The translations under genes were made by a program, and so were the position numbers. DNA of 64,000 nucleotides from Amyelois transitella (Eukaryota > Arthropoda > Insecta > Lepidoptera > Pyralidae): assembly GCF_032362555.1 (NCBI RefSeq), contig NC_083534.1:1764001-1828000 (forward strand), given 5' to 3'. Every line of letters begins with the position of its first letter. The stretch's first letter is position 1. Of this stretch, positions 45,557-63,838 are shown in pieces. Under the pieces are notes generated by a model, which was not told the DNA's origin, did no database searches, and saw only the letters and a program-made list of their open reading frames with translations.

Positions 45557-47143
45557 ATGTCACGAAATAGAATACCACTAGAAGATAATCAAATATCGGC
45601 TTTTATAAATGAAGAGTTGCAATTAGAGGATTTCGAGGATGATTCTGCGAGCGAGACCGAAGACTACGTGGAGGAAGACCATGTTCAGGAAGACGAAAAC
45701 TACGAGCTTTCGGATTCTGAAGATCTCCAAATGGAAGAGCAAGTAATTCCACCTGACCCTTCATCAATTGCCTCTGAAAGGCCTCCGTCTTCGCGAATTA
45801 TAGAGCTGTCACAAGCCAGCATTAGAGGTAAAAACCGTCATACCTGGGCCACTTCTAAAGGACAAAGTTCCGCAAGAACATCGATAAGAAATATAGTTCG
45901 TACATCGAGAGGACCTAGTCGATCTTGCAGAGGACTGACAGGTGAGCTGCATTGCTTTGAAAAATTTTTTACTGACGAACTTTTTGAGGAAATTGTAAAA
46001 TGGACTAATGTGGAGATCAATGTAAAGAGATCAAGTTATGAAAGTATTACAGCTACACAAAAAGATACGAATGTTTTAGAAATAAAGGCACTAGTCGGTA
46101 CCCTCATTCTATCAGCAGCTCTTAAGGATAACCATTTGACTACCGAGGAGATATTTAGTAAAATATTCTGTGGTATTGGGTATGTCGCCGCCCTGAGTCG
46201 AGAACGGTTTGATTTTCTTGTGAGATGTTTACGTTTTGATGATAGAAATCTTCGCCTACAACTATCACAAACTGATCCGTTTACGCCAATTAGAGCCATA
46301 TGGAATATTTTGATAGCACAATGTCGTAGTAACTATATTCCTGGAACAAATGTCACGATAGATGAACAGTTACTTGGTTTTCGAGGCAGATGCAAATTCC
46401 GTATGTACATACCCAACAAGCCAGCAAAATATGGTATTAAAATTGAAATGATGTGTGATAGTGGAACATATTATACATATGATTGATGCCATACCATATT
46501 TAGGAAAATGTACTGACACTGGTGGGTTGCCTTTAGGTGAATATTTTGTCAAAGAATTGACACGCAGCATCCATGGGTCAAACAGAAATGTTACCACAGA
46601 TAATTGGTTCACATCAGTCCCGTTAGCGAAAAGTTTGGAACGAGAACCGTATAAATTAACTATAGTGGGTACTCTTCGAGGTAATAAAAGAGAAATTCCT
46701 GAAGAATTGAAAAATTCTAGAAACAGAGAGGTCGGCAGTTCTATATTTTGCTACGACGGGCCACTAACATTACTTTCGTTCAAACCAAAAACTTCTAAAA
46801 TTGTTTACTTTTTGAAAATGACGGCCTCTGTGGCTCAGCGGTAGTACGCTTGTCTGTGACACCGGAGGTCCCGGGTTCGAATCCCGGCCAGGGCGTGATG
46901 AGAAAATAACTTTTTCTGATTGTCCTGGGTCTTGGATGTTTATCTATATAAGTGTTTATTATAAAATATAGTATCGTTGAGTTGGTATCTCGTAACACAA
47001 GTTTCGAACTTACTTCGAGGCTAACTCAATCAGTGTAATTTGTCCCGTATATATTTATTTATATTTATTTATTTATTTATTTGTTGTCATCGTGCGATGA
47101 AGAAGGCACTATAAATTTATCTTCTAATAAGCCACATATGATT
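45557..47143 (+). pseudogene. piggyBac transposase pseudogene (PB5)
   Basis: 45557-46486: acidic N-terminus, then VTIDEQLLGFRGRCKF (first Asp) and YGIKIEMMCDSGTYY. A frameshift near 46480 moves to the frame with YLGKCTDTGGLPLGEYFVK, NVTTDNWFTSVPLA (second Asp) and LTIVGTLRGNKREIP. A SINE then splits SKIVYFL from LSSCDEEGTINLSSNKPHMI (47082-47143), after which Harb-A begins. The third Asp region is absent. Confidence 0.88.
46820..47078 (+). mobile_element. tRNA-derived SINE (family A) inside PB5
   Basis: Head TGGCTCAGCGGTA, B-box GGTTCGAATCC, then the common body and an ATTT tail. The PB5 frame resumes directly after it. Confidence 0.88.
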
Positions 47144-47379
47144 AGCCGGGTCCACACCGGACGATCCATCGCGCTCCGATCGCGCGCGGCAGCAGCGCGA
47201 TCCAAAGATGCAGGCGGTGTGGACGTGCCGCGCGCGATCCATGCGCACGTATTGGAGCGCGCGCTCCCTACCTCGCGCGATCCGTGTGCGGTCGGTTTTT
47301 GTGCCAGCCTCAAAGGTGCCTCAGTTGCGTGATGCGCGCGGTGTGGACGGTTGTGTTGGTTCGCGCGATCCACCTCGCC

Positions 47380-49395
47380 ATGGGCATCTCAGAAAGTCGC
47401 CGTTTGATATCGCTTTATAAAGAATTTAAATGTTTATGGGATCCCAAAGATTCTAATTACACCAATAGAGGTGTTAGAGATGATGCTTGGCGTCAGATTT
47501 CTCGTGAAATGGGGAATAAGTCGATCGAGAACCTAAAGAAAAAAATGCGATCTCTGGCGGGAGGCTACAGAAGGGAGAAACACAGAGAGAAGCAAAGCCG
47601 TATAACTGGATCCGGTAAGAAAACAAAGCTACTTTTTATCTGTAGGTATCAAAATTATATATTTTATTATAAGTAATTACATCATAATATTTACTGTGGA
47701 TTTCACGTGATTTCGCTTTTTACATTTAAGCTGTTAGTGGTTATTTTAATGAGTAACTTGTTTATTTCAGGTGCTCAAGATACATATAAATCAAAGTGGT
47801 TTGCGTATGATGACTTCGATTTTATGGCGGATAAAAATGAACCCGGAACCACACGCGATACATTGGAACATGTGAGCTATTAGTTTACTGATATTCATTT
47901 TGCCAAACTATTGTATGGTTTGTAACAAAGTGTCTTGCTAAGTGGGACCGTATTGTAGTGGCATTTTCGGTTGCTCCTCTTGGTACGACGGCCATCGGTT
48001 GTAGCGATTGTGATGGCGGTTCATTTCGCCAGCTTCCAGGTATTACATCTCCATTCTCCTGTACTGTATCAAACGTTCCTGGCGATATAAAGTTAGGATT
48101 ACTGCGTAAGTAGTTATATAGATGAACCGTTGCCAGCACGACTTTAGTCGCAGTTTCTGGTTCCAAAAGCATAGGTTTACGCAGGACTCTGTAGACAGAA
48201 CTAAGTACTCCAAACGCGTTTTCAACTACTCTACGTGCTCTTGACAGTCGGTAGTTGAAAATTCTTTCACAAGAACCCCTTTCCCGTGTACCATCGTATG
48301 GTTTCATAGTATAATCATTAAGCTGAAAAGCTTTATCACCTAGTATATAATAGGGTACCTCAATTTTATAGGGAACTTGCAATATCTCCGGTGGAGGAAT
48401 ATTTAGCTCTTTTTTTTCAAGTTTTTTATATAAATTTGTGCTTTTGAACACGCCTCCATCTGATATTCTGCCTTTAGTCCCAACATTCACATACAGGAAC
48501 CTATAATTTGCATCTACTAATGCAAAAAGAACAATACTAGGAAATAATTTGTAATTATCAAAGTCGTTGCCACTATTAAAAGGCGATTGTATAGCGACGT
48601 GTTTGCCGTCCATCGCTCCTATCACGTGTGGGAAATTCCACTTATTCTCGAATTGCTGAGAAACTGTACGCCATTCTTCTTTAGTTGACGGCACCTGAAA
48701 ATAAAGGAGATCTTAATTATAATATAAAGCTGAAAATAAGAATAAGCAGTAAATAGTAATAATAATTGTTGTTACAGGTAGAATCTGATACGACTGAAGG
48801 GGAACTTGAAGTTAATACTACAGTGAGCGAAAACGAGAACAGTAACATTACTAGTGACACACAACCGGAGAGAGCCAACCACCACACAGATCAGAGTAGA
48901 GAGCAGAATGATCAGAATGCACAATCCAGTGTCCAAACAACAAACAAAAGAACAAAAAAAAGAAAGAAAACTACTTCTAATAATGCAGATGACATATCAG
49001 ATGAAACTCTTTCAGAGGCTTTCCAACTTCTGCAACAATGTTCTCAGCCACCACAACCGGAAACTGATTGTTACATTGCTTTCGGGCAGTATATATCTAC
49101 TGAATTGCGGAAATATGATGCAGTAACATTAGTTAATGTCAAAAATGCTATATGCCAAGTTATTTTTCAAGCTGACACAGGAAGATATGGGGATAGCAAT
49201 TATGGGTATTACACTAATTCATATCCTGGCACACCAATAGCATCCACTTCATCACAGTCCCAGTCTCTACAACCTCAAAATTATCCAGCTCCAATTCCAC
49301 AGACATCACCGTCTGCTCATCTAGCCTCCAATTCATCGCAGTCCCAGTTTCTGAAACCTCAGGATTATTCACTTCCACAGTCACCACCGAATTAA
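47380..49395 (+). CDS. Harb-A MADF/BESS-type DNA-binding protein, 317 residues
   Basis: Exons 47380-47614, 47771-47871 and 48778-49395 join in phase (235+101+618 = 954 nt), with donors GGATCCG/GTAAGA and ACAT/GTGAGC and acceptors TTATTTCAG and GTTACAG. The N-terminal MADF domain reads RRLISLYKEFKCLWDP, DDAWRQISREMG, LKKKMRSLAGGYRRE and KWFAYDDFDFM. A Ser/Gln-rich tail with a basic patch (KRTKKRKKT) follows. Harbinger elements need such a Myb/SANT-type partner for transposase nuclear entry and end binding. Exon 2 ends 13 nt before the transposase stop on the other strand. Confidence 0.85.
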
Positions 49396-49953
49396 ATAAG
49401 TACCTACCTATATCATGTTTTCAAAAAATAATTAATAATTGTAAACATGTTACTTCTTTAAATTATGATTGTAATACACTACTTTTTTATTGAGTAATAA
49501 AGTATGGTTTTACTTACCTTTACATAATCATTTAACAGGTCAATGATGGCTTCACAAACTTCAGGAATAATTATCGATATAGACTGTTTGGAAATGCGGA
49601 ACAGATACTGCAAACTGACGTACGAATCTCCAGTTGCTAAAAATCTCAATGTTAGTAATAATCTTTCCTTCACAGTAATGGCATCTCTATAATTTGTATC
49701 ATTCTTTCTTAGCTTGTTATTTAATAATGAACACAATATCTCAAATTGATTAGCATTCATTCTTGCAAAATTGTGTTCACCTTTATCTGACACTAACTCT
49801 GCGTACAGCTGAGTTCCAGATTCCAAGCGATTTTTGTAAATTTGTTTCACCCAAAACCATCGTTTTCTTTTTTGTGATTTTTTGCAAGCATTTAAGCAAA
49901 ATAAAAGTTACTGCTGCAACGGCAAGACGCCGCCGTTGTACGTGTGACTCCAT
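47885..49953 (-). CDS. Harb-A transposase (HARBI1-type), one frameshift in an A-run
   Basis: Exon 1 49953-49518 (donor GTAAAG/GTAAGT), exon 2 48694-47885 (acceptor TATTTTCAG). DDE core in exon 2: IGAMDGKHVAIQSP (D), YILGDKAFQLND (D) and RRVVENAFGVLSS (E). Exon 1 starts MESHVQRRRLAVAAVTFIL. The next conserved text (KRWFWVKQIYKNRLESG) is in another frame, one base off, across an A-rich stretch at 49862-49888. The rest is intact. It could be a true lesion or an assembly error. Confidence 0.82.
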
Positions 49954-50213
49954 ATCGTACAAGAGTTAGACTGGCTGAATCACGGATCGCCTTAGGCAGC
50001 CATTACACAGTCAATCCAGATCGCGATCCGTGATCGTGATCATTGATCTCGATTTAGATTGACTGTGTAACGTGTTGGATTGATAGATCGAGCGATCGGA
50101 TCACAAATAACTAGATTTTTTGAAATCCATGATCGCGATCCCGAGATCGCCATCCAGATTGAGCGTGTAATGAGAAGTTTTTTCAATTTACATCAGTCAG
50201 CGTTCGCACCGCG

Positions 50214-52801
50214 ATGGAGTCGGACGACGATGGTGACGACATGGCGTCGCCGCAACCGCAACAATCCACGTCAAAGACGCCGAATAATTCTCCCGAAGAA
50301 GAGTTTATTTTATCTCTGGAAACTATGCCAGAATTATGGGATAAAAAGTGCAATGATTACACAAATAAGTACAAACGAAGAATCGGGTATGAGAAGCTCC
50401 AAAAAATTTTAGTGAAAATTAAACCACGTACCACTGTTGAAGATGTAAAGAAAAAAATTAATAGTCTGCGGTCAAATTATAGAAGAGAATTAAAAAAGAT
50501 AGTCACTTCAAAAAGGTCAGGTGCTGGCACGGGTGAGGTTTATGTACCAAAATCGTGGACGTTTAAATATCTTACATTTCTACAAAACGCAGAAAAGCCT
50601 GTTTCTGAGGTGAGCTAATTAATTGTGTTATTAGTTTATAAAACAGTTTTATTGTATTGCATTATTTATTTACCAGTTTCATTAGTTACAATTTTACCTT
50701 CATTACAAAAATATTGACATAAATTTTCCCTTATCGATTTTGCGTCACGTGGTGGGTTTCTATTATGAGTACACTCCATATCGACAAACGTATTAGTATG
50801 TTTTGATTCTTTTTTTTTATGGGAGGAAAGATACGATTTTGAAGCATATTGCAGGAGGTAATTATGTAAATAGCAACATGTCGCTGTTATAAGTGCTGCC
50901 TTGCTGGGTTCAAAGGCTAAATCTCTTTGGAAAATACCGAATTTAGAATTCAGTATGCCAAAAGCACATTCAACTACCGATCGTGCACGTGAGAGGCGAT
51001 AATTAAATACTTTGCGTTCTTCATTTAGTGAATTTTGTGGGAATGGTTTCATTAAATTTTGGCCCAAGGCAAACGCTTCATCAGATATAATCACATACGG
51101 AGATATTCGAGCAGAACCCGGTAATATTGAAGGTTCGGGTAGATTCAATTTTTTTTGTTGGTAAAGTTCCCAAAATTTGGTATAAAATAATACGCCTCCG
51201 TCAGATATACGTCCATTAGTTCCAATATCTATCATAATAAATTCCTTTTTTGCATTAACTAATGCCATGAGGACAATGCTATGGAAGCCTTTGTAATTAT
51301 AATACAAAGATCCAGAATGAGCAGGTTTTTTAATTCCTACGTGTTTCCCGTCCAAAGCTCCTAAACAATTCCAAAAGTGGTATCTGTTCCCAAACTCTTC
51401 TGCTACTGCTTTCCATTCGTCTTCAGTTGTTGGCATCTGAAACAAATAATGAAACTCCATTTAATTATACACATAACAAAAAATATACCTTTCAGTATAG
51501 TGTAGTGAGGGTTATTACATAAAAATGAATGAATGTGCTTTTCAGTGAGTACAGGGATGGTTTTAAAGTCATAGTTGGATAATTGGACCAGATAGGTGGC
51601 GCTGTTGTCGAAATCGAGAAAACGGGGACGAAGCCGCGGGCACCCAGCTAGTGTTTAATAAAAATTATACCTGAAAATATACCTGTCATGTGTAGTGAGT
51701 GTACGTACATAACAAAAATTGTATCTTTCATGTGTAATATAGTGTAAAATGAGTGTAAATGCGACAAACTTAATATTCTTTGTTCTGCAGATTTCACACA
51801 CGGAAGATTCAGATGATCCATCTATGATACAACAACCAAATGATACTCAAGAAGAATCGCGGCAAGTTTCGAGCCAAGAAAATAGTTCTTCACTGTCCTC
51901 TATCAATGTAATGCCAGCGCCTGCTCAAGTTAATGAGGGATCTAATGCAAAAAAGAAAAAAATAACAATCGCTCGTACTCAACATGAGTTACTAAAGAAG
52001 GCTTGCACTTACTTATCTCAACCAGAGAAAGCATGCAGTTCAGCAGCATTAGTCTGGTCTGAAAAACTTGAACAAATGGATCCAATACAAAAATTATACG
52101 CCGAAAAGGCCATAAATGATATTTTGTTTGAAGGGCAGTTGGGGAATTTGAATAGATTCTCTGTAAAAATTAACCAATCGGTATCCGAAGATATATTGCC
52201 CTCTTCAAATTCGTCGTCACCAGCATATATACACCGTTCTTCATCAGCAAGACATGCACCGTCGCCGCGTGAAAATATCTATACTTACACACCATCACTT
52301 CTAGCGGCTGAACGTTCGTCAGCACCAGCAAATATACCATCGCCTCGTGAAAATTGCTCTAACTACACAGCATCACCTTCACCTCCGTCGGCTCCATCAT
52401 CGCTCAGGAAATCTTCTGAACGCTCTTCATCAGCAACACATACACCGTCGCCTCGTGAAAACGTCTATACCTACGCACCATCACCTCTAGCGGCTCCATC
52501 ATCACTAGGGCAATACTCTGAACATTCGTCATCACAGGCGCAAAACGTTTTACATCCAATTGCATCAAACATAATAATTAACAATCCTGCTTCAATGCCA
52601 CCGCCTTCATTTGCTTCATCTACACCATTAGTGATACAAGTCAATACAGATTCTCTAAATGAACAGGATAGTTATAACCTACACATTCCATCAACAATTG
52701 ATGCCACTCCCCAAATCCCACCTTCTGATGCTACTTCTCAATTTACATATTCAGAGTACAATGTTGGTACACTGTTTGCTGAGTTTAAGGCGGATTTGTG
52801 A
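50214..52801 (+). CDS. Harb-B MADF/BESS-type protein, 468 residues
   Basis: Exons 50214-50609 and 51791-52801 (396+1011 nt), donor TCTGAG/GTGAGC, acceptor TTCTGCAG. MADF domain: EEFILSLETMPELWDKKCND, KRRIGYEKLQKILVKI, DVKKKINSLRSNYRRELKKI and YVPKSWTFKYLTFL. A BESS-like helix pair reads MDPIQKLYAEKAINDILFEG. The C-terminal half is Ser/Pro-rich with three PSPREN repeats (IYTYTPS, CSNYTAS, VYTYAPS following). It is the partner of the transposase on the opposite strand, whose exon 2 lies wholly in this gene's intron. Confidence 0.88.
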
Positions 52802-53446
52802 TTGATTTGATTTTTGATTTTTCTTGATTTTCCTTGATTTTGATTTTCCTTGATTTTCCTTTTTAAATAAAAAAATAAATATGAACCTATGTGTTTTAAT
52901 AGTATATTAGAAATACTTACATAACTGTACAAATTATGATTGGGTACATTTAATTGCTTACGGGACATACTAAAAAAGGGGTGCTATTGACTGGAAATGA
53001 CTTACCTTTATGCAGTGTTGAAGTACATGAACAATTGCTCTACATGTGTCTATAATGATTTCACCAATGGCAGCTGGAGACATTATTACCGAAAATTTTA
53101 GGCATTCAATAGTTCTGCCAGTCGCGAGGAAACGCAATGTAGCAGCTAATTTTTCTTTAGGGGTTATGCTCTTCCGCATGCAGGTATCTTGTTTTAACAA
53201 GTGTGGTGTAACTCTTTCCAACAGATGATTAAAGCATGCATCATTCATCCTGTAGTAATTAGCATAATGGTCCTCTTCCTCAGTACTATGAATTTCATGT
53301 AACAAGTTCAAATGGGTGTAGATGTTCCTCTTTAGTAACCATGGTTTAACCCAACGTTTCCTATTAACACGTTTCTTTACAGCAGAAGCAATTATTATTG
53401 CTACACAAGCTTTTTTCTTCTGATTTACTTGTAAACACGTGTTCAT
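50666..53446 (-). CDS. Harb-B transposase (HARBI1-type), 403 residues
   Basis: Exon 1 53446-53006 (donor ATAAAG/GTAAGT) and exon 2 51436-50666 (acceptor TTGTTTCAG) join in phase 0 (441+771 nt). N-terminal RKRWVKPWLLKRNIYTHLNL and SITPKEKLAATLRFLATGRT. DDE: CLGALDGKHVGIKKP (D), VIISDEAFALGQNLMKP (D) and RSVVECAFGILNS (E). Full length, no lesion. The MADF exon 2 lies in its intron. Confidence 0.93.
51590..51655 (+). repeat. Helitron-like 3' end fragment in the Harb-B introns
   Basis: ggacgaagccgcgggcaccc then agCTAGtg: the terminal hairpin and CTAG of a Helitron without its body. It lies in both the MADF and transposase introns. Confidence 0.5.
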
Positions 53447-53887
53447 CTTGACAGTGGCGAACAGTGGACTGATGTGATCTGGAGTGAACGTCTAATGACG
53501 CTTCAGTCGCATCAAGATCCATCAATCTGCTGTGATCCGTGACCTTGGTCGGATCGCGATCTGGATTGACTGTGTAATGGCTGCCTTAGGATCGCTTGGA
53601 GCGCATATTTGGGATCGCAAGTTTCCAAGAGTGGATCGGCCTAACACGATCCACGATCCACGCTCCGCGATCCTGGATCGCGGATCGCGGGATCGTTGGA
53701 TCGTCCGGTGTGGACCCGGCTATTATCATTACATTTTGATCACTCCTCGTATAGTTTTGTACGGGTAATTTGTGGTGAAAGTTGTAGTCAAGAAGTTGCC
53801 GGTTTATAACGTAAACAAAGGTTAATTCGACTGTTTTTTGTTGTAGTTAATCCTATTGATTATCGTTTTGTAAACCATCAGGTATAC

Positions 53888-54225
53888 TTTATCAAATATA
53901 ATAATTCAAAGACCTTCTTGAAGAATTTGCAAGCGAATTATGGCGATGTTATCTTACATACGGCCGTCAGATGGTTGAGCAAAGGTAAAGTATTAGAACG
54001 GTTCTTTCATTTAAAACAAGAAATAATACTTTTTCTACTACAAAGTGGCGAAGAATTCCCCCAACTAGAGCAAAGCAAATGGTAGATACTTGCGACTTTT
54101 TTGACCGATATTACTATGAAATTCAATAGTCTTAATTGAGAGATGCAAGGGCCTAACAAGAAATTTGGAGAAATGACAAATAAAGTGTTCGCATTTGAAG
54201 CTAAACTCCAATTATAAATGAGCTC
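53888..54225 (+). pseudogene. hAT transposase fragment (GTF2IRD2/ZBED-like)
   Basis: Reads FLKNLQANYGDVILHTAVRW, LSKGKVLERFFHLKQEI, ATFLTDITMKFNSLN, stop, EMQGPNKKFGEMTNKVFAFE. This matches the middle of hAT transposases (LHTEVRWLSRGKVLERFFxLR ... FLTDITxHLNxLNxxLQG). No ends or BED finger nearby. Confidence 0.75.
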
Positions 54226-54379
54226 GAATATTTCAATAAATATTCTAATAAAAAATATGTATGACTCATTTCTTCGATTTGCTTACATATAAATAAATAT
54301 ATATTATAAACATATGTAAAGAAATGATATTTCTTTATTTTGAATTTTGCCGCGCTTTCGACATTGCCGGTGTCATTAA

Positions 54380-55140
54380 CCTTTTAACCGCGCGAGTCGC
54401 CGCATATATGCGACAAATATTGCCGTGCCCCTACCGCCCGTGTCGTATTTCTGCGACAGAGAATATCCATGATTTTTTCGTTCTATTATCGTCCTATTAA
54501 CTTCGTGGTATAACTAAAACTATTATTGAATAGAGCTATTTATTACAACAATTACTTAAAATTATGTTTCATAGCTCTAAGCATTGTCGAAAAAACTTAA
54601 ACAAAAATAAGTAATTGGCAGCTCGGACTTTTCTTCGGTGTCTATCGCGCGTGTCGCATAAATATGACCATAGGGATGGGATACAATGCAATGCGCATTT
54701 TAAAAACAAAATAACAAACAGTTAAATAATCAGGTATAATGCATCATTCAGCATGAAATAAACAGTGTCATACGAAATAAAGTTAAATTTAACATATTGT
54801 CTTGTGTTACTATTTTTTTCCCTTATTATTCAAGAAAAGTATCCCTCAGAATCTTTGTATAACGCCAACATTTGACGTTAGTTCCCATCCCTAGACGGCT
54901 ATGCTTGCAACACATTTCTCTAGTTAGTCCAGCGCGGCTGTCGCATAAATACGACCGGCTGCCTACGTCATCATTCAAACGAATGGAAAGTTCCATTGTT
55001 GTTCGGCGGGGCATTGTCGATAAAATAGGTAGTCGATTTCAATAATGACGACTACTGAGGAATTATTAAGAATATTAGAAGGAGACGACGAATCATGCGA
55101 ATTTATAGAAGAATTTATAAGTGATGGAGAGGTAAGTACC
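54380..55140 (+). mobile_element. piggyBac PB6, 5' end only
   Basis: TTAA (54376-54379) is followed by CCTTTTAACCGCGCGAGTCG and nearby GTCGCATATATGCGAC palindromes, with further GTCGCATAAATAYGACC copies at about 54655 and 54940. At 55045 a frame opens MTTTEELLRILEGDDESCEF, the acidic start typical of piggyBac transposases, followed by a GAG/GTAAGT donor-like site. The rest is absent; an RTE fragment follows. Confidence 0.6.
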
Positions 55141-55397
55141 TATGTAAATTTGTTTTTATGTTAGTTGCACATTATTCAGTAGGTATAGGTATAAATAAGA
55201 CTTTCGTTGGGTTTAGGTAACTTCTTGATAAATCGAAATAGTATTTAAATATTGTGATGTAATTCTGTTATTATATTATATTAAGTACCTACCTATTTAT
55301 CTACATATCCTATTGTTGGTTCCTATTTGTTAAAGTTATATACCTACCTATGTAGATAGGTACCTACTATTTGTTACGAAATGTAATTTTCATGTAG

Positions 55398-56003
55398 AGA
55401 GAATATAAAAGGTATTTATGAATCAGCTATAGAAGGTAGGGTCGAAAGAGGACGTCCGAGAAGAACATACCGTGACCATATTGGCGATGTTCTTCAGAAA
55501 GGACATGTGCGTAGTACTCGGAATAGGCGAGCATGTATACCTATACTTTATTTCAAAAACTTACACATAGTTTACAATATAAACTGGCTAAGGTTTAGGT
55601 ACAGCATGAGATTTGAACTTATCAAACTATGTTCCAGAGTAATTAAACTCTGCCACTTAAACTAGGGTACCTAAACCTGTTACATAAGTGACAGTGTTCG
55701 GTCACAAGGATATTGGTATTTGTATGTTTGGATAGCGAGTGTGCCGTGTGGTTTTTTATGTATCTGGTAGAGAATAGGTATAACGTATATGAGCATGCTT
55801 GTGTTTATATTAAATATGTGTGTATTTGCATAAGTTTATGTGTACCTACATGTTTCTGTTTGGATGATGTGGATGTATGTGAGTGCGTGTATGAATGCAT
55901 GGATGTAAGTGAGGCAAAGGTGCAGGGATTGTGGCAGGTGGCGTTCAGTGGTCTCTGCCTACCCCCATGGGAATAAGGCGTGACATTATGTATGTATGTA
56001 TGT
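55398..56003 (+). repeat. RTE-like LINE fragments, diverged
   Basis: 55430-55540 reads IYESAIEGRVERGRPRRTYR and DVLQKGHVRSTRNRRACM, the same region as IYKESVEGKVGVGRPRRTYL in the large RTE. 55915-56003 is the 3' end (tctgcctacccccatgggaa plus TATG repeats). A TGTG-rich stretch separates them. Confidence 0.75.
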
Positions 56004-56013
56004 AATTTTGACC

Positions 56014-56286
56014 CATAGACGACTAAGCCCTATAGACACCGCATTGCACGCACCCGCACGCGCCAAACATTAGACGCCTCGTTCATATGTAAGCGCCACG
56101 CCCGCCCCCGAGCTTTTTAGTACAAAATTAAGCCTGCAAAAATATATTTATATTTGTGTTATACCGCTTACCTTGAAATACCCAATCACAGAGCTCGATG
56201 TTCACCGGCGCCCCCCTGGCTATTGGGGATTACATTCTAATATTAAATATATTTGATGCGTAGTCTATAGGGCTTAATCGTCTATG
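56014..56286. mobile_element. 273-bp hAT-like MITE
   Basis: Inverted ends CATAGACGACTAAGCCCTAT (56014) and ATAGGGCTTAATCGTCTATG (ending 56286), 24 bp with one mismatch. The 8-bp direct repeats TTTTGACC at 56006-56013 and 56287-56294 are the duplication length of hAT elements. No ORF. Confidence 0.88.
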
Positions 56287-56354
56287 TTTTGACCTAATGA
56301 CTATAACAAATAATATAATTATGTAATAAATTGTAACTTGTCATTTAAAATAAT

Positions 56355-56600
56355 ATATATAAATAAATATATACGGGACAAACTACACTGATTGAGTTAG
56401 CCTCGAAGTAAGTTCGAAACTTGTGTTACGAGATACTAACTCAACGATACTATATTTTATAATAAATACTTGTATAGATAAACATCCAAGACCCAGGCCA
56501 ATCAGAAAAAGTTCTTTTCTCATCATGCCCTGACCGGGATTCGAACCCGGGACCTCCGGTGTCACAGACAAGCGTACTACCGCTGAGCCACAGAGGCCGC
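56355..56600 (-). mobile_element. tRNA-derived SINE (family A)
   Basis: Minus copy: the head (GCGGCCTCTGTGGCTCAGCG on minus) is at 56600, B-box GGTTCGAATCC, and an ATTT tail at 56355. Confidence 0.87.
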
Positions 56601-56910
56601 ATTTCAGGATCATGAAGACAATGAAGGCATTAATTGGACGTCAGACATAACTTTACCTGTGTAGCGGCCGTTCAGCCTCCATGGACAATCCACTTTTTGA
56701 CTTAACATTTTAGATGACTAAAACCGACTGACAGACTGGGAAAAAAAGGACAATCGACTTGAACACTAAGGAGACGACCATAAGACGACGAGACGACAAG
56801 ACGTATCTTGAACGGGAAAATTCTTTTTTTATTTTATTCAGACTAGACAAAGACCCTAACAGACCCTCGGCCCGTTCAAGTGGTCCTTCGAGCCATACGC
56901 AATCACACCC

Positions 56911-58955
56911 ATGGTTGAAACTAGATCCGGTAAAATGACATCGGAAGAGATACGGGCTAGCGCTACCGCCGACCTGACCGGGCCGGGCCGACAGTCCGCC
57001 CACGGCAGCCGCGCACCGTCTCCTTGTCCGTCCATACGATCCGACACGACAAACCAGACGATTGTAAAGGCACGACGACGACGCCTTATCGACCTTCAAT
57101 TGGAAGCGGCTGAAGAACATGCTCTGATCGAGAAGCGCCTTTTGGAGCAGAGGTTAGCTATACAACAACAAGCTATAGCCGAAGAAGATGACAATGTATC
57201 GATAGCCTCACGTCCACGGCCGCGGACGTCGATAGCAGGTACACATGTTTTACCTCCCAATACGACACATGAAACTTGTCCAACTGTAAATAGTCTTGTA
57301 CATACTGTAAATAAATTGCTGAGTAGACAGACTTCAGCAAAAGACCTACCCCTGTTTTCGGGAGAGCCTGAGGAATGGCCCTTATTTTATAGTCAGTTTA
57401 TGTCCTCGACGAAGTTATGTGGCTATAGCGACGACGAAAACATCGCTAGATTAGCACGTTGCCTGAAAGGCCGTGCCAGAGACGCTGTATCGGCATTATT
57501 AGTTTCCGCAACGAATCTCAAAATTATTATAAGTACCCTTAAGTTAAGATTTGGACGACCAGATTTAATTGTTGAAAATTTATAGGAAAAAATACGGCTT
57601 ATGCGTGACGTCAGACATGACGACGTCAACCATTTAATAGAGTTTGCGACTGCTGTACAGAATGTCACAGCTACTATGAAAATGACCGAAGAGGTTGGGC
57701 ATTTACAAATCCATCTTTGATACGTACCATCATAAACAAATTACCATCTATTTTGAAATATCAGTGGAGTATGCATGCTGCGAGTTTGGGAGTTAAATCG
57801 ATCACCCTGTCCCACGTATCTGAATGGCTGATGACGACCGCCAATGCCGCTACCTACATCGCTCCACTGATCACTAAGCCGCCGACCCCGAATATTTCGA
57901 AGCCGCAAATCAAGTCCGAACTAAAATATAAGACAGTCGCGACGTCTATGACAGAGCCTTCATCACTGACACCAAGATGTGTATTTTGCAGTGGTAAGCA
58001 TTTTGTAAATAATTGTACAGATTTTAAAGCCTTGACCATAGATGACCGTTAGAAGCTCGCAACGGAAAAGAAACTATGTTTTTCCTGTTCGTCTGAGCGC
58101 CACCAGCTGAAAGCCTGTAAGAGGAAGACGAAGTGCACGATGCCCGACTGCACACGAGCACATCACACACTCTTGCACGCTGCTCCGCGACCTGAGACCG
58201 CTGTTGAAGACATTGTCAGGACGGTCAATACGTGCACACAAAAGAATCATGTGCTGCTAAAGGTTGTTCCAGTTGTGGTTTCCGGAGGAAAAGGCGATGT
58301 CTCTACGTTCGCTCTCCTAGACGAAGGGTCGGCAGTGACCCTGATGAGCTCGTCGTTGCTGGAGAGGGCCGACATCACGGGACCTACGTCGAGCCTACGT
58401 ATCCGCGGCGTGACTGGAATGACTACTACGGAGGCAGACTCGAAGACGGTCTCTTTTAAAATTCGTGGACTGAACGAGAAAAATGTATTTAATGTAAATA
58501 AGGCGCGTTCTGTACATAATTTAAATTTGTCTGTAAATAGTTTTTTGTATAAAAATATTGTAAATAAAAATCCATACTTGACAGACTATGCGACAAATTA
58601 TGACATACGACCTGACAAGGTTGAACTTCTTATAGGACAAGACAACATTGACCTAATTATAACTAGACAAGTTATACAAAAACATAAGACTGGACCGACG
58701 GTATCCAAGACTGACTTAGGATACGTTATACATGGCAATGTGGGACTTGGTGGACTACCAAACGACTTGACTGTCCTACACGTCTGCCGATGTGAATCAG
58801 ACTTACATGACTTGGTTAAACGTTCTTTTTCTACAGAATCATTCGGCGTAAAGCAGTCTGATGACTTTTCCCTTTCTCGGGAGGATCAGCGGGCGCTGAA
58901 TATTACGCACGCCATTCTATTATGCAGGGATCGCGGCGGGCTAGCGACGATGTAA
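56911..58955 (+). pseudogene. BEL/Pao retrotransposon gag-protease relic
   Basis: Gag: SIRSDTTNQTIVKARRRRLI, LPLFSGEPEEWPLFYSQF, RLARCLKGRARDAVSALLV. A stop at 57583 and a frameshift near 57695 follow. Zinc knuckles: CVFCSGKHFVNNC, a stop at 58050, [14 protein letters not shown] and [15 protein letters not shown]. Aspartic protease: [33 protein letters not shown]. The frame ends at 58955 before reverse transcriptase. No LTR pair is visible. The order and the DUF1759/DUF1758-like text identify the family. Confidence 0.85.
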
Positions 58956-59326
58956 TGACGTTTCGCGGGCTCATTGCCACTCGTCGCATCGCAGCGATAG
59001 TATCGCCGTGTGGAGACGGTTTCATAGAGAGTGTATAGAAATACGTGGCACGACGATAATATCGTCGCGATTCTCTCGGTCGTGGAGTCAGCGCCTAAGG
59101 GTTCATACAGACGAACTGCAAGTTGTAAACGTCAGAGTCTACTTCAGCCGTCGCCATCTGTCGACGGCAGCCGACGACGCGTCGGCGGCAGCAGTCAATA
59201 CGTCGACGGCTGCCGCCGACAGGTGGCGATGTTTGCGGTTCTTGCGTGTTTCGTCCGCCATTTTGTCAGTCGACTGCAAATAGACGGAGAGTGCGCAAGC
59301 GTCACGCATCCACAAAATGAGCTACC
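58956..59326. other. GC-rich stretch, possible end of another Harbinger-type element
   Basis: CCTAAGGGTTCATACAGACG at 59095 resembles a Harbinger terminus, and GTCGACGGCAGCCGACG and CGTCGACGGCTGCCGCCGAC are near-inverted repeats at about 59160 and 59200. No partner end is seen. Confidence 0.35.
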
Positions 59327-60060
59327 TTAGGGCTCAAACACATAAACACGTTACGACGACGCAACGTACAACGATGCGGCGTCGTTTCACGATACGACGT
59401 CGCATCGTGGAAATCTACGTCACGACGTCGTAACGTACCGATGCACGATACGACGTCGTGACGTTAGAAACTCACGTTGCAATCCTGCGCAGTTGTATTC
59501 AAAATTCAAAGATGACGGATGTCATTGAAGTCGATCATTTAATTACCCTAGTCGAGCAGCGTCCCGTACTATGGGACAAAACATCTGAAGAATACAAGAA
59601 TAAAAATTCAAAAACAACAGCATGGAAAGAGGTGTGCGAAAATTTATTTCCTGGTTTTCAAGAATTATGCAATCAAGAAAAAACAAAATATGGTAAGTAA
59701 TATCCTATATTTTATTTAGTTGCCAACTAAGAGCTCCCACATCACTATTAGGCTGCAGTTAGACGACGCGAAAAAATTCTTGCGGCCGCCGCGCGGCGAC
59801 CGCGCGGTGGCCGCGTACTAACTGTTCAGTTATAGCAAATTTATGTTTTATTATCTAGGACGTAAAGTTGAAATTAATTTTGAGTAACTAACTGCGCGGT
59901 GACCGCGCGGCGTTCGCTCCTCGATCACACGGCGGCCGCGCGGCCGTCTCGCTCGAATCACTCGAATGTTCTCGATGTACGCCCCGCGCCGGCGTCCCCG
60001 CATTCTCCTTTCATTGGACTTGCGTAGACATCGTGACGCGCGGACATCGTGATTTCGAAG

Positions 60061-62102
60061 ATGGATGAACTGAGTATCAATCCTGAGACATTGATATCTT
60101 TAGTGGAAGAAAGAAATATCCTTTGGGATAAAACAAGCGAATCCTATAAGGATAAACGTCAAACACTAAAAGCCTGGCATGACCTATGTTCAATTATAAA
60201 AGAAGATTTCAATGACCTTCCAATTGGGGAAAAAAACACATACGGTAAGTTTTCCATCTTTTATTTGGTAATTAAAAAATTGTGAACATTCATCATCATC
60301 ATAAATCGCAAAAAAATATTATTTGAGTTAAGTTTAAAATTGTTTTTTAACTGTGATATTCTTGCAATAAACGAGTGATTTGATAATTTTGAGTATCTAT
60401 ATATATTTGTTTTGCCATGGTACACTGCCCTGAGGAGAAACAAAATATTCAGCAAAATTTTGACGAACATTGTCTGCTATTAAAGGATCTGCATATTCTG
60501 ATCGTGACAGTGTCTGTAGTTCAAAGCCTGAATCGACAATTAAATTACCTATGCCCTGTTCTTTATGTATGAAGTTTTGTAATAAACAACAGGTTTTTAC
60601 AATGTCGACTGTGAGCTCCAAAGATACATTTGAAGGCCGATGGAGGATCCTCCATTTATTGGCCATTATGCCGAAAGCGCATTCCACATAACGTCTTGCT
60701 CTAGTAAGACGATAATTAAATATTGACATTGTTTCATTGAGTTCTCGACCACTAAATGGTCTCAGTACATTTTTGTGCAACGCGAATGCTTCATCCGCGA
60801 CAAATACGTACGGTAATTGAAAATTAGTCTCTGGAATCAGAGCAGGCTGTGGTAAGTTAAGTGTATTGTTCAGCAGTCTCTTCCAAAAGACAGTTTCTTT
60901 AAAAACACTTGAATCGCAGTCCTTGCCATATGCACCAATATCTACAAATATAAAATTATAATTGGTGTCAACGACTGCCATTAATACAATAGAAAAAAAG
61001 TGTTTGTAATTTAAGAACATTGATCCAGATTTTGTAGGTTTAATTATTCTGATATGCTTCCCATCCACAGCACCTAGGCAGTGGGGAAAATTTGCAATAA
61101 CAGCAAAGTCTTCAGCAATATTCAGCCATTCATTTTCTGATGGTATTTTCATATATATGTTTACTAGTTCTGACCATATACAGTTACACACTTCTTTAAT
61201 GATAAACGATAATGTTGTTTTTCCAATTCTAAATGCGTATCTTAAATCGGCAAACGTGTGACCTGTTGCCAAGTACCTGTAAATATATAAAATGATATTA
61301 AGGAACTTATTTCAAGCAATTAATTATACTAATAGTATTAATATTAATTAACATGTTTCCTGATAATGAAACATAAAGAGGAATCATGCGAATTAAAAAT
61401 AACTATATTTTTTAATGTGAATATTATTTTTAAATTCCAGGTAAAAAAGTTATTCAGAAATGGAAAAATATGCGAGATGGGTGGATGAAATGCGAAAAGA
61501 AAATGAGGGAAAACAAATCTGGATCTGCAACAAAAAAAGTTCATAAGTACCCATACTATGATAATATGTTGTTTTTAAAGAAAATATACAACCCCCGCGA
61601 AACTAATTCAAATTTTAAGAATTCTGAGCCAGGAAAAAGTAAACCAAATACGAAAAATAAAGAATTGAGTGATGTGGATGCAAAATTCATGAAGTTTATG
61701 GACTCTGTTGAAAAAGAAGAAGACAGTCGTATGATGTCGTTCTTTAAAGGAATTTTACCAACTGTTGAACAATTCAATGATGAAGATACTGTTGAGTTTC
61801 AGTACCAGGTGATGTCTATTGTGAGAAATATAAAAGCTAAAAACCAACAGCTCCAGAATGCTGGTTCGAAAAGGCCTTACTTTACTCCACCACCCGAGAC
61901 TACGTATCGTCGAGAAGGCGAAAATGTATCATACGAAAGCACCTATCAGTATGGTTACACTACTGCTGCTGGATCTGGACGTCCGACAACACAACAATCA
62001 TCTTATTCTGAAGAGTCCGAATCTACCGTAGGTGGAGAGCAATACAATTTTGCCAGTCCATCCAATTCAAGTATCGACGATTTAGATTTTACAAATATAT
62101 AG
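60061..62102 (+). CDS. Harb-C MADF/BESS-type protein, 281 residues
   Basis: Exons 60061-60244 and 61441-62102 (184+662 nt, phase 1), donor TACG/GTAAGT, acceptor AATTCCAG. MADF: PETLISLVEERNILWDKTSE, TLKAWHDLCSIIKEDF, VIQKWKNMRDGWMKCEKKM, KVHKYPYYDNMLFLKKI. BESS-like: SRMMSFFKGILPTVEQFNDE, TVEFQYQVMSIVRNI. A further in-frame start exists 12 nt upstream; 60061 was chosen for its AAG-ATG-G context. The transposase exon 2 sits in its intron on the other strand. Confidence 0.9.
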
Positions 62103-62490
62103 TCTGCCTTACAAATTTATATATATAATGATTAATAAATACCACTTGACCAAGTAATTGTTATTATTTATTTACTTACCGCAATGTCACTGCTAATCTT
62201 TCTGTGGGGGTAATACTGTCCCGCATGTTAGTGTTCTGGTGCTTCAATTTATCATGTATGAAGTTGAGTAGTTTATCAAATGTTTTAACATCCATTCGGA
62301 AATAATCTGCGAATTCTTTTTCATCTTCTCGCAATTGGTTGTATAGCGTATGAAATTCACCAAACTCTTCTCGCCGTGCTAAAATAGGATGAATCCAAAA
62401 TTTTCTACAATTCTTTTTTTCTTTCTTTTTGCTTTGTCGGTACAAGTAATATGCAATCATAATTTTATTCTTCTTAGTCAAATAGCTCAT
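60397..62490 (-). CDS. Harb-C transposase (HARBI1-type), 396 residues
   Basis: Exon 1 62490-62180 (donor TTGCG/GTAAGT), exon 2 61276-60397 (acceptor TATTTACAG), joined in phase (311+880 nt). N-terminal CRKFWIHPILARREEFGEFH, SITPTERLAVTLR + YLATGHTFADLRYAF. DDE: HCLGAVDGKHIRIIKP (D), YVFVADEAFALHKNVLRP (D) and ARRYVECAFGIMANKWRIL (E). No lesion. Its intron contains MADF exon 2. Confidence 0.92.
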
Positions 62491-62889
62491 AACGAACACG
62501 TGTGAATTTTAAGAAAGACCAAGATCAACTGGAAATGGTTCGGGTTCGCAGTGGCGTGGCCACCAGGCCTGACCGCGCGGCCGCCGCGCGGTCACCATAC
62601 TTTCGTCGCGCGGCCGACACGCTGTAACATTCCGCGTCATATAAACGCGCCCTAAGACTGCTGGAAAATGATTTATCAAATCAAAGTAGAAACGAGGCTT
62701 CTAGAAATGAGAATAAGTCTGATGACTACTACTTTTTTATGAGTTTACTTCCACAAATGGAAAAATTCACGCCCTTTCAAAAGTTTAGAGTAAGACAAAA
62801 AATTAATCAAGCTCTTCTAGATGAGTTAAGTGTAAATGAAAGCACGTACCCTTCTAATGAATCATATATGTATGGGTATAGTACTCAAC

Positions 62890-63150
62890 AATAGAGGTAT
62901 ATCAATCTTATAATGAAAATACTGTCAATAAATAACAAAACTGTGATTTAAATAGTTAACTAATCGTCGTACAGATGAGAACTTTAATTTTAGAGAGAAG
63001 ATTTAGTTTTAAGATTAGCGTGGAATTATTATACTGACCACTAAGTATATCGACCTTGTAATAAAAATACTGTAAATGAGTGAGAAAACTGTGATTGTAG
63101 AAATAATTAATCGTAGTACAAACGAAAACTGTGATTTTAAAAATAAATGA
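62890..63150. repeat. Diverged two-copy duplication in the Harb-D 3' region
   Basis: aatactgtcaataaataaca, then actgtgatttaaatag and gtcgtacagatgagaac (62917-62985) recur as aatactgtaaatgagtgaga, actgtgattgtag and gtagtacaaacgaaaac (63067-63133), about 150 bp apart. Confidence 0.5.
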
Positions 63151-63377
63151 CAAACTGTTATGTTACTTATTTCATACGAAACGTTTTTATATTATATTTT
63201 TCGTCAAAGATAAATAATTAAGGCTGATTAGTGTGTAGTAGGTATTTAATTAAAATTATTGTATCTGGGAACTTAATACCGATGCCAAACTATTTACTAA
63301 ATTAGTAGGTACAACACTTCCTTTTTGAAACTATCAATAAATACAATTACAAATTACAATTTCGTTGTTTTACTTAC

Positions 63378-63673
63378 CCAAGCGTTATGTATAATTTTTC
63401 TGCTGGAGATATACCTCTAAAACTTTTTGGATTAATTCCAGACTGTAAATCACTCTTGATAGTTTCTAGAATATAGTCAAAAGTTTCTACACTCATTCTG
63501 GTGTAGTCGTAGAATTTATCGGGATTTTGTCTCTGTTCTTCATAATTTCGATAAAACTCGCCATTTATTTTCCTTGCCTTATAGTAGGGATCCACTTCTT
63601 CTTTTGCCCACAATAAATCGAGCGTTAGGAATACATTTGAATCAAAAAGATGTTGTCGCCGATTTTCAGACAT
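63378..63673 (-). pseudogene. Harb-D transposase exon 1 (exon 2 lost)
   Basis: Starts MSENRRQHLFDSNVFLTLDL, then RKINGEFYRNYEEQRQNPDK, FYDYTRMSVETFDYILETI and ISPAEKLYITLG with donor CTTGG/GTAAGT. No matching DDE exon of this element is found to its left; the place is occupied by Harb-C. Confidence 0.75.
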
Positions 63674-63838
63674 TTCGTTTGCGAATGTCGACAACACAAC
63701 CACGAACACATCACTACACCGCTACAGTACCGCGCGATCTGCCCGCTGGTTTCGAGAACAGGTATGCGTTGCCCGCCCCTCTCCCGCGCCGCCGCCGCCG
63801 CCGCCCCGCTGCCCGCAAAATTCGAGACCGAGGCCTTA

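Follow-up and report, generated by a model that had tools for sequence, protein, structure and literature searches.

Reciprocally interlocked MADF and transposase genes in PIF/Harbinger transposons of Amyelois transitella

The 64,000-nucleotide stretch of the Amyelois transitella genome considered here (hereafter the window; C30:1764001-1828000, the 33 contigs of the 327 Mb genome searched being labelled in the style C1-C33) contains PIF/Harbinger transposons with two convergent genes, one for a transposase and the other for a MADF protein, the DNA-binding partner, and raises the question of how two genes can be threaded through one another and why such an arrangement should last. In the three elements Harb-A, Harb-B and Harb-C, the exons follow one another as MADF exon, transposase exon 2, last MADF exon and transposase exon 1, with the two genes on opposite strands and each having an exon in an intron of the other. 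This interlock is the rule among the MADF-type Harbingers sampled in this genome, and the preferred reading, to which we give a probability of roughly 0.6, is that these are two-gene transposons with interlocked genes, persisting in that form mainly by lock-in.

Every exon border named for the three elements has the expected GT or AG on its strand. The Pfam MADF profile is matched over 1-84/84 by the spliced MADF proteins, and DDE_Tnp_4 over 1-158/158 by each transposase exon 2. A DDE_Tnp_4 transposase, a MADF second gene and terminal inverted repeats (TIRs) are the marks of PIF/Harbinger elements, and the convergent, interlocked layout that the initial annotation had proposed for the three copies is confirmed by these borders and domains. 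The elements are of two types, Harb-C being type I and Harb-A and Harb-B type II, and in both genes the two types have their introns at different positions and in different phases. The features are given below in window coordinates, with the basis of each in brackets (ORF, open reading frame).

47143..53722, no strand: Harb-A element, type II (TIR arms 47143-47171 and 53694-53722, interrupted by Harb-B)
47380..47614, plus strand: Harb-A MADF exon 1, ending in phase 1 (ORF, GT donor, MADF match of the spliced protein)
47771..47871, plus strand: Harb-A MADF exon 2, ending in phase 0 (AG and GT borders, C-terminal part of MADF)
47885..48694, minus strand: Harb-A transposase exon 2 (DDE_Tnp_4 1-158/158, AG border)
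48778..49395, plus strand: Harb-A MADF exon 3, within the transposase intron (AG border, profile match)
49518..49904, minus strand: Harb-A transposase exon 1, type II, with a phase 0 donor (sequence, GT border)
49995..53585, no strand: Harb-B element, type II, nested in Harb-A (TIR beginning GGCAGCC)
50214..50609, plus strand: Harb-B MADF exon 1 with the entire MADF domain, ending in phase 0 (ORF, GT donor, MADF match)
50665..50670, minus strand: AATAAA overlapping the stop codon of the Harb-B transposase (sequence; the predicted 3′ end falls short of the MADF exon)
50666..51436, minus strand: Harb-B transposase exon 2, within the MADF intron (AG border, DDE_Tnp_4 match)
51791..52801, plus strand: Harb-B putative last MADF exon, within the transposase intron (long open frame and AG border only)
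53006..53446, minus strand: Harb-B transposase exon 1 (ORF, GT border)
59748..62655, no strand: Harb-C element, type I, nested in the remnant Harb-D (ends TTAGG...CCTAA)
60061..60244, plus strand: Harb-C MADF exon 1, the first half of MADF, ending in phase 1 (GT border, models)
60397..61276, minus strand: Harb-C transposase exon 2 with a phase 2 acceptor, within the MADF intron (AG border, DDE_Tnp_4)
61441..62102, plus strand: Harb-C MADF exon 2, the second half of MADF and a tail, within the transposase intron (AG border, MADF match)
62180..62490, minus strand: Harb-C transposase exon 1 (ORF, GT border)

The inverted repeats and the sequence place Harb-B within Harb-A. The TIR of Harb-A is 29 nt long and 97% complementary, and its flanks read ATT or TA as a candidate target-site duplication (TSD), while that of Harb-B is 41 nt long at 98%, with a TTA duplication on both sides (49992-49994 and 53586-53588). 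In Harb-A, transposase exon 2 lies within the last MADF intron, 13 nt off MADF exon 2, the gap between the two opposite acceptors is 83 nt, and MADF exon 3 is matched by the profile of other type II last exons (E 3e-27). By eye, the start of its transposase exon 1 (49783-49965) seems to lie in a different frame from the remainder, so this copy is probably defective. In Harb-C, the intron containing transposase exon 2 interrupts the MADF domain itself, which becomes complete only after the exons are joined. The ends of Harb-C are identical to those of another copy, L029, its TIRs appear by eye to be short and imperfect, and both copies have TTA at the left end and TAA at the right, with no plain 3-bp TSD seen.

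A genome search with DDE_Tnp_4, in which the best 150 of 532 candidates were scored, takes the layout beyond the window. Twenty stretches of 9.8 kb were chosen from the top groups by score and ORF length, blind to MADF; six of them (L009-L014) are ISL2EU-like, and in the remaining 14 there are 19 elements that have a MADF-type transposase exon 2. Together with Harb-A, Harb-B, Harb-C and four type II families added later, 26 elements were read in sequence (the first transposase exon of L017a being taken from a later coordinate search, and L019b continuing into L026). All four parts are interlocked in 23 of the 26, and none is contradictory: the incomplete elements L025 (three parts), L019a and L020 (two parts each) do not speak against the arrangement. 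The 23 four-part elements represent 22 families, 13 of type I and nine of type II, with L017b belonging to one family with L016, and L025 with L015. The four added type II families were picked without knowledge of where their last MADF exon lay, and all four turned out to be interlocked. That exon is poorly conserved in type II; leave-one-out profiles recover it in nine of ten cases with E 7e-7 or better, the miss being Harb-B.

Coordinate tallies, which count identical copies separately, point in the same direction. Upstream of the 105 exon-2 places listed for the Harb-C queries there is a transposase exon 1 in 81 cases and an opposite-strand MADF exon 2 in 61; MADF exon 2 stands between both transposase exons in 54 of the 54 listed places that have all three. 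All four parts were found in 43 of the 105 places, and 15 had nothing else detected. Of the Harb-C MADF matches, the best 150 of 159 stop (55) or start (95) at the intron, and none of those listed spans it. Among the listed MADF exon-2 matches with a transposase within 3 kb, 80 of 82 are upstream of it on the opposite strand, and among the listed exon-1 matches near a transposase 48 of 49 are downstream, again on the opposite strand. A general MADF profile (best 150 of 461 candidates scored) gave 97 matches with a transposase within 4.5 kb, of which 87 are a first half or a full MADF domain on the opposite strand facing the 3′ end of the transposase, and two are second halves upstream. The remaining eight are exceptions to the expected facing, including a same-strand match classed as 'N' and a same-strand one classed as 'full'; some of the eight were traced to another element, namely at Harb-B and at C23:4804471, with exon 2 at 4807090. 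These counts support the order well beyond the window and beyond chance.

Two sets of candidate counterexamples were considered and set aside. The Harb-C queries gave 12 pairings of a MADF match and a nearby transposase on the same strand, which, like the two same-strand matches above, are read by their coordinates as adjoining or nested copies, for example three Harb-C copies on C12. The long transposase ORFs of L009-L014, taken as possible controls with a non-interlocked MADF gene, had no MADF match, and L009 and L011 carry YqaJ by Pfam.

The remnant Harb-D, into which Harb-C is inserted, had been described as keeping the same order. This holds indirectly, as it retains a MADF exon 1, what by eye is the tail of the last MADF exon, and a transposase exon 1; its transposase exon 2 is lost.

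59512..59692, plus strand: Harb-D remnant MADF exon 1, type I donor, phase 1 (sequence)
62656..62894, plus strand: Harb-D remnant, tail of MADF exon 2, the upstream part gone (assigned by eye)
63378..63673, minus strand: Harb-D remnant transposase exon 1 (sequence)

What can be read from the sequence is the order of the parts, the splice-site sequences, the phases, the open frames, the low nonsynonymous divergence and the co-divergence of the parts. In six pairs of families, some sharing members, each exon has a nonsynonymous divergence (pN) of 0.18-0.46 at a synonymous divergence (pS) of 0.65-0.98, with synonymous sites so near saturation that the ratios are rough. The four parts diverge in step with one another in 11 type I elements (identities correlated at r 0.60-0.82). 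Ten near-identical copies of Harb-C, that of the window included, keep both transposase exons, and eight of the ten keep the full MADF exon 2 at 100%. Finally, the intron phases are near-constant. The type I transposase intron lies at TLR|YLATG in phase 2 in 10 of 11 models and the type I MADF intron mid-domain in phase 1 in 12 of 12, whereas the type II transposase intron is 44 codons further downstream, before P.T..EW, in phase 0 in five of five models, and the type II MADF intron, by eye, follows the domain in phase 0 in five families. The transposase of each type is uninterrupted at the intron position of the other, and since each reads through the other's intron site, the junctions inferred for both are checked independently of RNA.

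Several points weigh against this reading of the genes. The putative last MADF exon of Harb-B is unmatched by a profile built from the other nine type II last exons tested, and its identity is suggested by the frame and AG border. MADF exon 2 went undetected in 44 of the 105 exon-2 places listed for the Harb-C queries, two of the 82 MADF exon-2 matches lie downstream of the nearest transposase, and one of the 49 exon-1 matches is on the same strand, although by their coordinates these last three are read as neighbouring elements. One type I transposase model (L028) is in phase 0. Queries of 120 nt across the exon junctions of transposase and MADF found no processed copies of the spliced Harb-C genes, returning separate exons, a deletion derivative and two weaker partial matches. 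A place at C5:3823509 that matched the spliced Harb-C transposase over 1-396 was considered as an intron-free proof of splicing and rejected, as the sequence is that of an internal deletion derivative: L029 (C5:3822600-3825800) is a Harb-C that has lost MADF exon 2 and most of the transposase intron, with both ends kept and a short repeat at the junction. Finally, L024 and L026b are 67% identical in MADF exon 1 and 27% in transposase exon 1, a mismatch that hints at a possible exchange of parts between families, contrary to strict lock-in.

The ORFs could accordingly be taken as unspliced separate genes or pieces of pseudogenes, and the interlock as a chance fall of fragments, a view helped by splicing being predicted from sequence, by the missing processed copies and by the Harb-B exon that homology does not recognise. 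The identical order in all 54 listed three-part places, the near-constant phases, a Harb-C MADF domain that is complete only on joining, the low pN in every exon and the ten near-identical Harb-C copies make such an artefact highly improbable.

The next question is how often the interlock arose. The exon-2 tree of 19 rows separates the two types with a support of 96/97, and the lowest exon-2 identity is 38% among type I elements and 32% both among type II elements and between the types. The claim that the layout has been kept over long divergence stands within each type; between the types the introns differ, which makes two origins possible. Two relatives outside the genome, L034 and L035, were found by a search of genome contigs; both are on eukaryote-looking contigs filed under bacterial metagenome-assembled genomes, which are probably contaminated. 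No relatives were found among the viral contigs searched, and the search of solved structures gave no match. The transposases of L034 and L035 have no intron at the position of either type, and no MADF gene was seen on their short contigs. The 21-row tree that includes them groups L034 with type I (86/92) and L035 with type II (86/88). Forcing all interlocked rows into one clade costs 11.6 log units (approximately unbiased (AU) test, p = 0.052), and forcing type II into one clade is not rejected (p = 0.225).

The placement of the two relatives and their lack of introns favour two independent origins without settling the matter. The interlock may thus have evolved at least two times in parallel, from non-interlocked ancestors and with different intron positions in both genes, a proposal that we put forward tentatively and below even odds. 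The tree behind it is weak, with its forks at 86/92 and 86/88 and an AU p of 0.052, and a loss of introns in L034 and L035 would also fit a single origin; both points tell against parallel origins. A single ancestral interlock, with both introns shifted later to give the two types, is a serious possibility that we would still stop short of calling probable. It would account for the identical topology on either side of the type split, one interlocked clade is not clearly rejected by the AU test, and both type II introns are displaced downstream, the MADF one by roughly 50-65 codons as counted by eye. However, both introns differ between the types in position and phase, so that a single origin would require part of each gene to have moved across a partner exon, and the two intron-free relatives group one with each type. 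If parallel origin is true, the interlock would be a repeatable route to inseparable obligate partners and to introns nearly free of cost.

A possible route to either type would be a tandem duplication, or the insertion of one element into another, after which exons were lost reciprocally. At any breakpoints, such losses would yield the order MADF 5′, transposase 3′, MADF 3′, transposase 5′, and hence different introns within one topology. Remnants of duplicated exons were looked for in the spacers and none was found at the thresholds used.

Once formed, the arrangement would largely maintain itself. Each gene would start at its own end of the element and run towards the other, with the 3′ coding exon of the partner held in its intron on the opposite strand; each would be transcribed through the other, and splicing would discard the partner exon as antisense intron. 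Any central deletion or recombination event would then disrupt both genes, and both proteins would be needed for transposition, as in the rice and zebrafish Harbinger elements according to the passages available (PMC2836001, PMC9710019). The introns would cost little because much of each is the exon of the partner. Lock-in of this kind would explain the persistence without special selection; the parallel origins that would have given types I and II their different introns are a less certain part of the same proposal.

It is also conceivable that selection favoured the interlock itself, since partners that must co-evolve would gain from a layout that blocks recombination between them. The correlated exon identities (r 0.60-0.82) are what such selection would produce, although teleost Harbingers likewise show congruent evolution of the two genes with no interlocking reported in the passages available (PMC9179366), the L024-L026b pair is out of line, and in the present data the process is indistinguishable from neutral lock-in, all of which makes it a doubtful explanation.

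The elements are densely packed. All 49 coding gaps in the 17 modelled elements are positive, with a minimum of 13 and a median of 115 nt, in agreement with the early observation of gaps as small as 13 nt and no overlap of coding exons. The share of intron sequence taken by the partner exon ranges, over 11 type I elements, from 51 to 95% in MADF and from 26 to 92% in the transposase. L024 is the tightest, with gaps of 16, 30 and 29 nt and partner exons filling 95% and 92% of the two introns; an A-rich/T-rich spacer of 30 nt separates its two opposing 3′ splice sites, and each branch site may therefore fall within a coding exon of the other gene.

The 3′ ends were predicted from AATAAA or ATTAAA with cleavage assumed 18 nt past the hexamer. 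The median distance from stop codon to hexamer is 41 nt for the transposase and 38 nt for MADF, compared with 307 and 230 nt in single-base shuffles, and in five cases (three transposase, two MADF) the hexamer overlaps the stop codon. The initial annotation had each 3′ untranslated region ending inside the other gene's intron. For MADF this fits well, the predicted end clearing the opposite exon in 15 of 16 cases (shuffled mean 6.7) with an overlap of 10 nt in the remaining one; for the transposase only 10 of 17 clear it (shuffled mean 4.8), three overlapping the MADF exon by 3-13 nt and four (Harb-A, L017a, L015 and L027o) by 129-231 nt.

The same annotation had proposed that the exons alternate through selection against complementarity between the two mRNAs, which would limit double-stranded RNA (dsRNA) and escape silencing. 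The uniformly positive coding gaps and the nearness of the poly(A) hexamers to the stops, relative to shuffles, are in line with this proposal, but coding constraint alone already predicts the non-overlap, and short distances from stop to poly(A) signal may be common wherever genes are compact, the comparison being with shuffles and not with host genes. Moreover, four of the 17 transposase 3′ ends, that of Harb-A included, are predicted to run over 129-231 nt of the MADF exon, and the interlock lengthens the complementarity of the pre-mRNAs, which would be less for genes arranged simply tail to tail like those of the ISL2EU-like elements here. As coding constraint suffices and a simpler layout would serve better, the idea is weak, and dsRNA avoidance appears an improbable cause; persistence mainly by lock-in is preferred.

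A layout found in all 22 fully read families of one genome constitutes a natural experiment on gene threading. It raises the question of neutral lock-in versus compaction versus selection that keeps partners together, and that of how two opposite transcripts are spliced with acceptors down to 30 nt apart. Annotation may be affected too, since a gene finder that forbids opposite-strand exons in introns would miss or chop such genes. As for their surroundings, 91 of the 199 transposase exon-2 places among the matches listed are in nine islands that cover 0.965 Mb, or 0.295% of the genome, on the six contigs C7, C19, C20, C23, C27 and C30, the window overlapping the low end of the C30 island. Such dense Harbinger islands are possibly insertion traps or Piwi-interacting RNA clusters.

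Within the open-access literature searched, no report of interlocked Harbinger genes was found, Repbase reports and subscription papers (for example on the zebrafish Harbinger3_DR) being outside its scope, and the two kinds of interlock with different introns are new here. The elements resemble the known PIF/Harbinger transposons with a Myb/SANT/MADF gene in their DDE_Tnp_4 transposase, MADF partner and TIRs and, for Harb-B, in the TTA TSD. The available passages describe the ORFs of Medicago Harbingers by their upstream or downstream order, with one or two transposase introns (PMC2213677), and co-domesticated Anopheles pairs as 97 and 179 bp apart, one of them annotated as dicistronic (PMC9710019); none of these pairs is described there as interlocked, in contrast to those reported here. 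The ISL2EU elements, which encode a THAP transposase and a YqaJ nuclease, share with the present ones the same genome, the DDE_Tnp_4 domain and a convergent second gene. In L009 and L011 YqaJ is found by Pfam, with THAP in L009, and the genes are convergent and non-interlocked where both are seen; L010, L012 and L013 resemble these two by eye. The second gene of Harb-A, Harb-B and Harb-C is MADF and not YqaJ, and their genes are interlocked, whereas those of ISL2EU stand tail to tail. Finally, overlapping and nested host genes of animals are likewise antiparallel within one locus, and the passages available on them report coding overlap as rare (PMC2330155). A nested host gene lies as a whole in one intron of the other, whereas here both genes keep an exon outside the other, and each gene of a mobile element reciprocally holds an exon of its partner in its intron.

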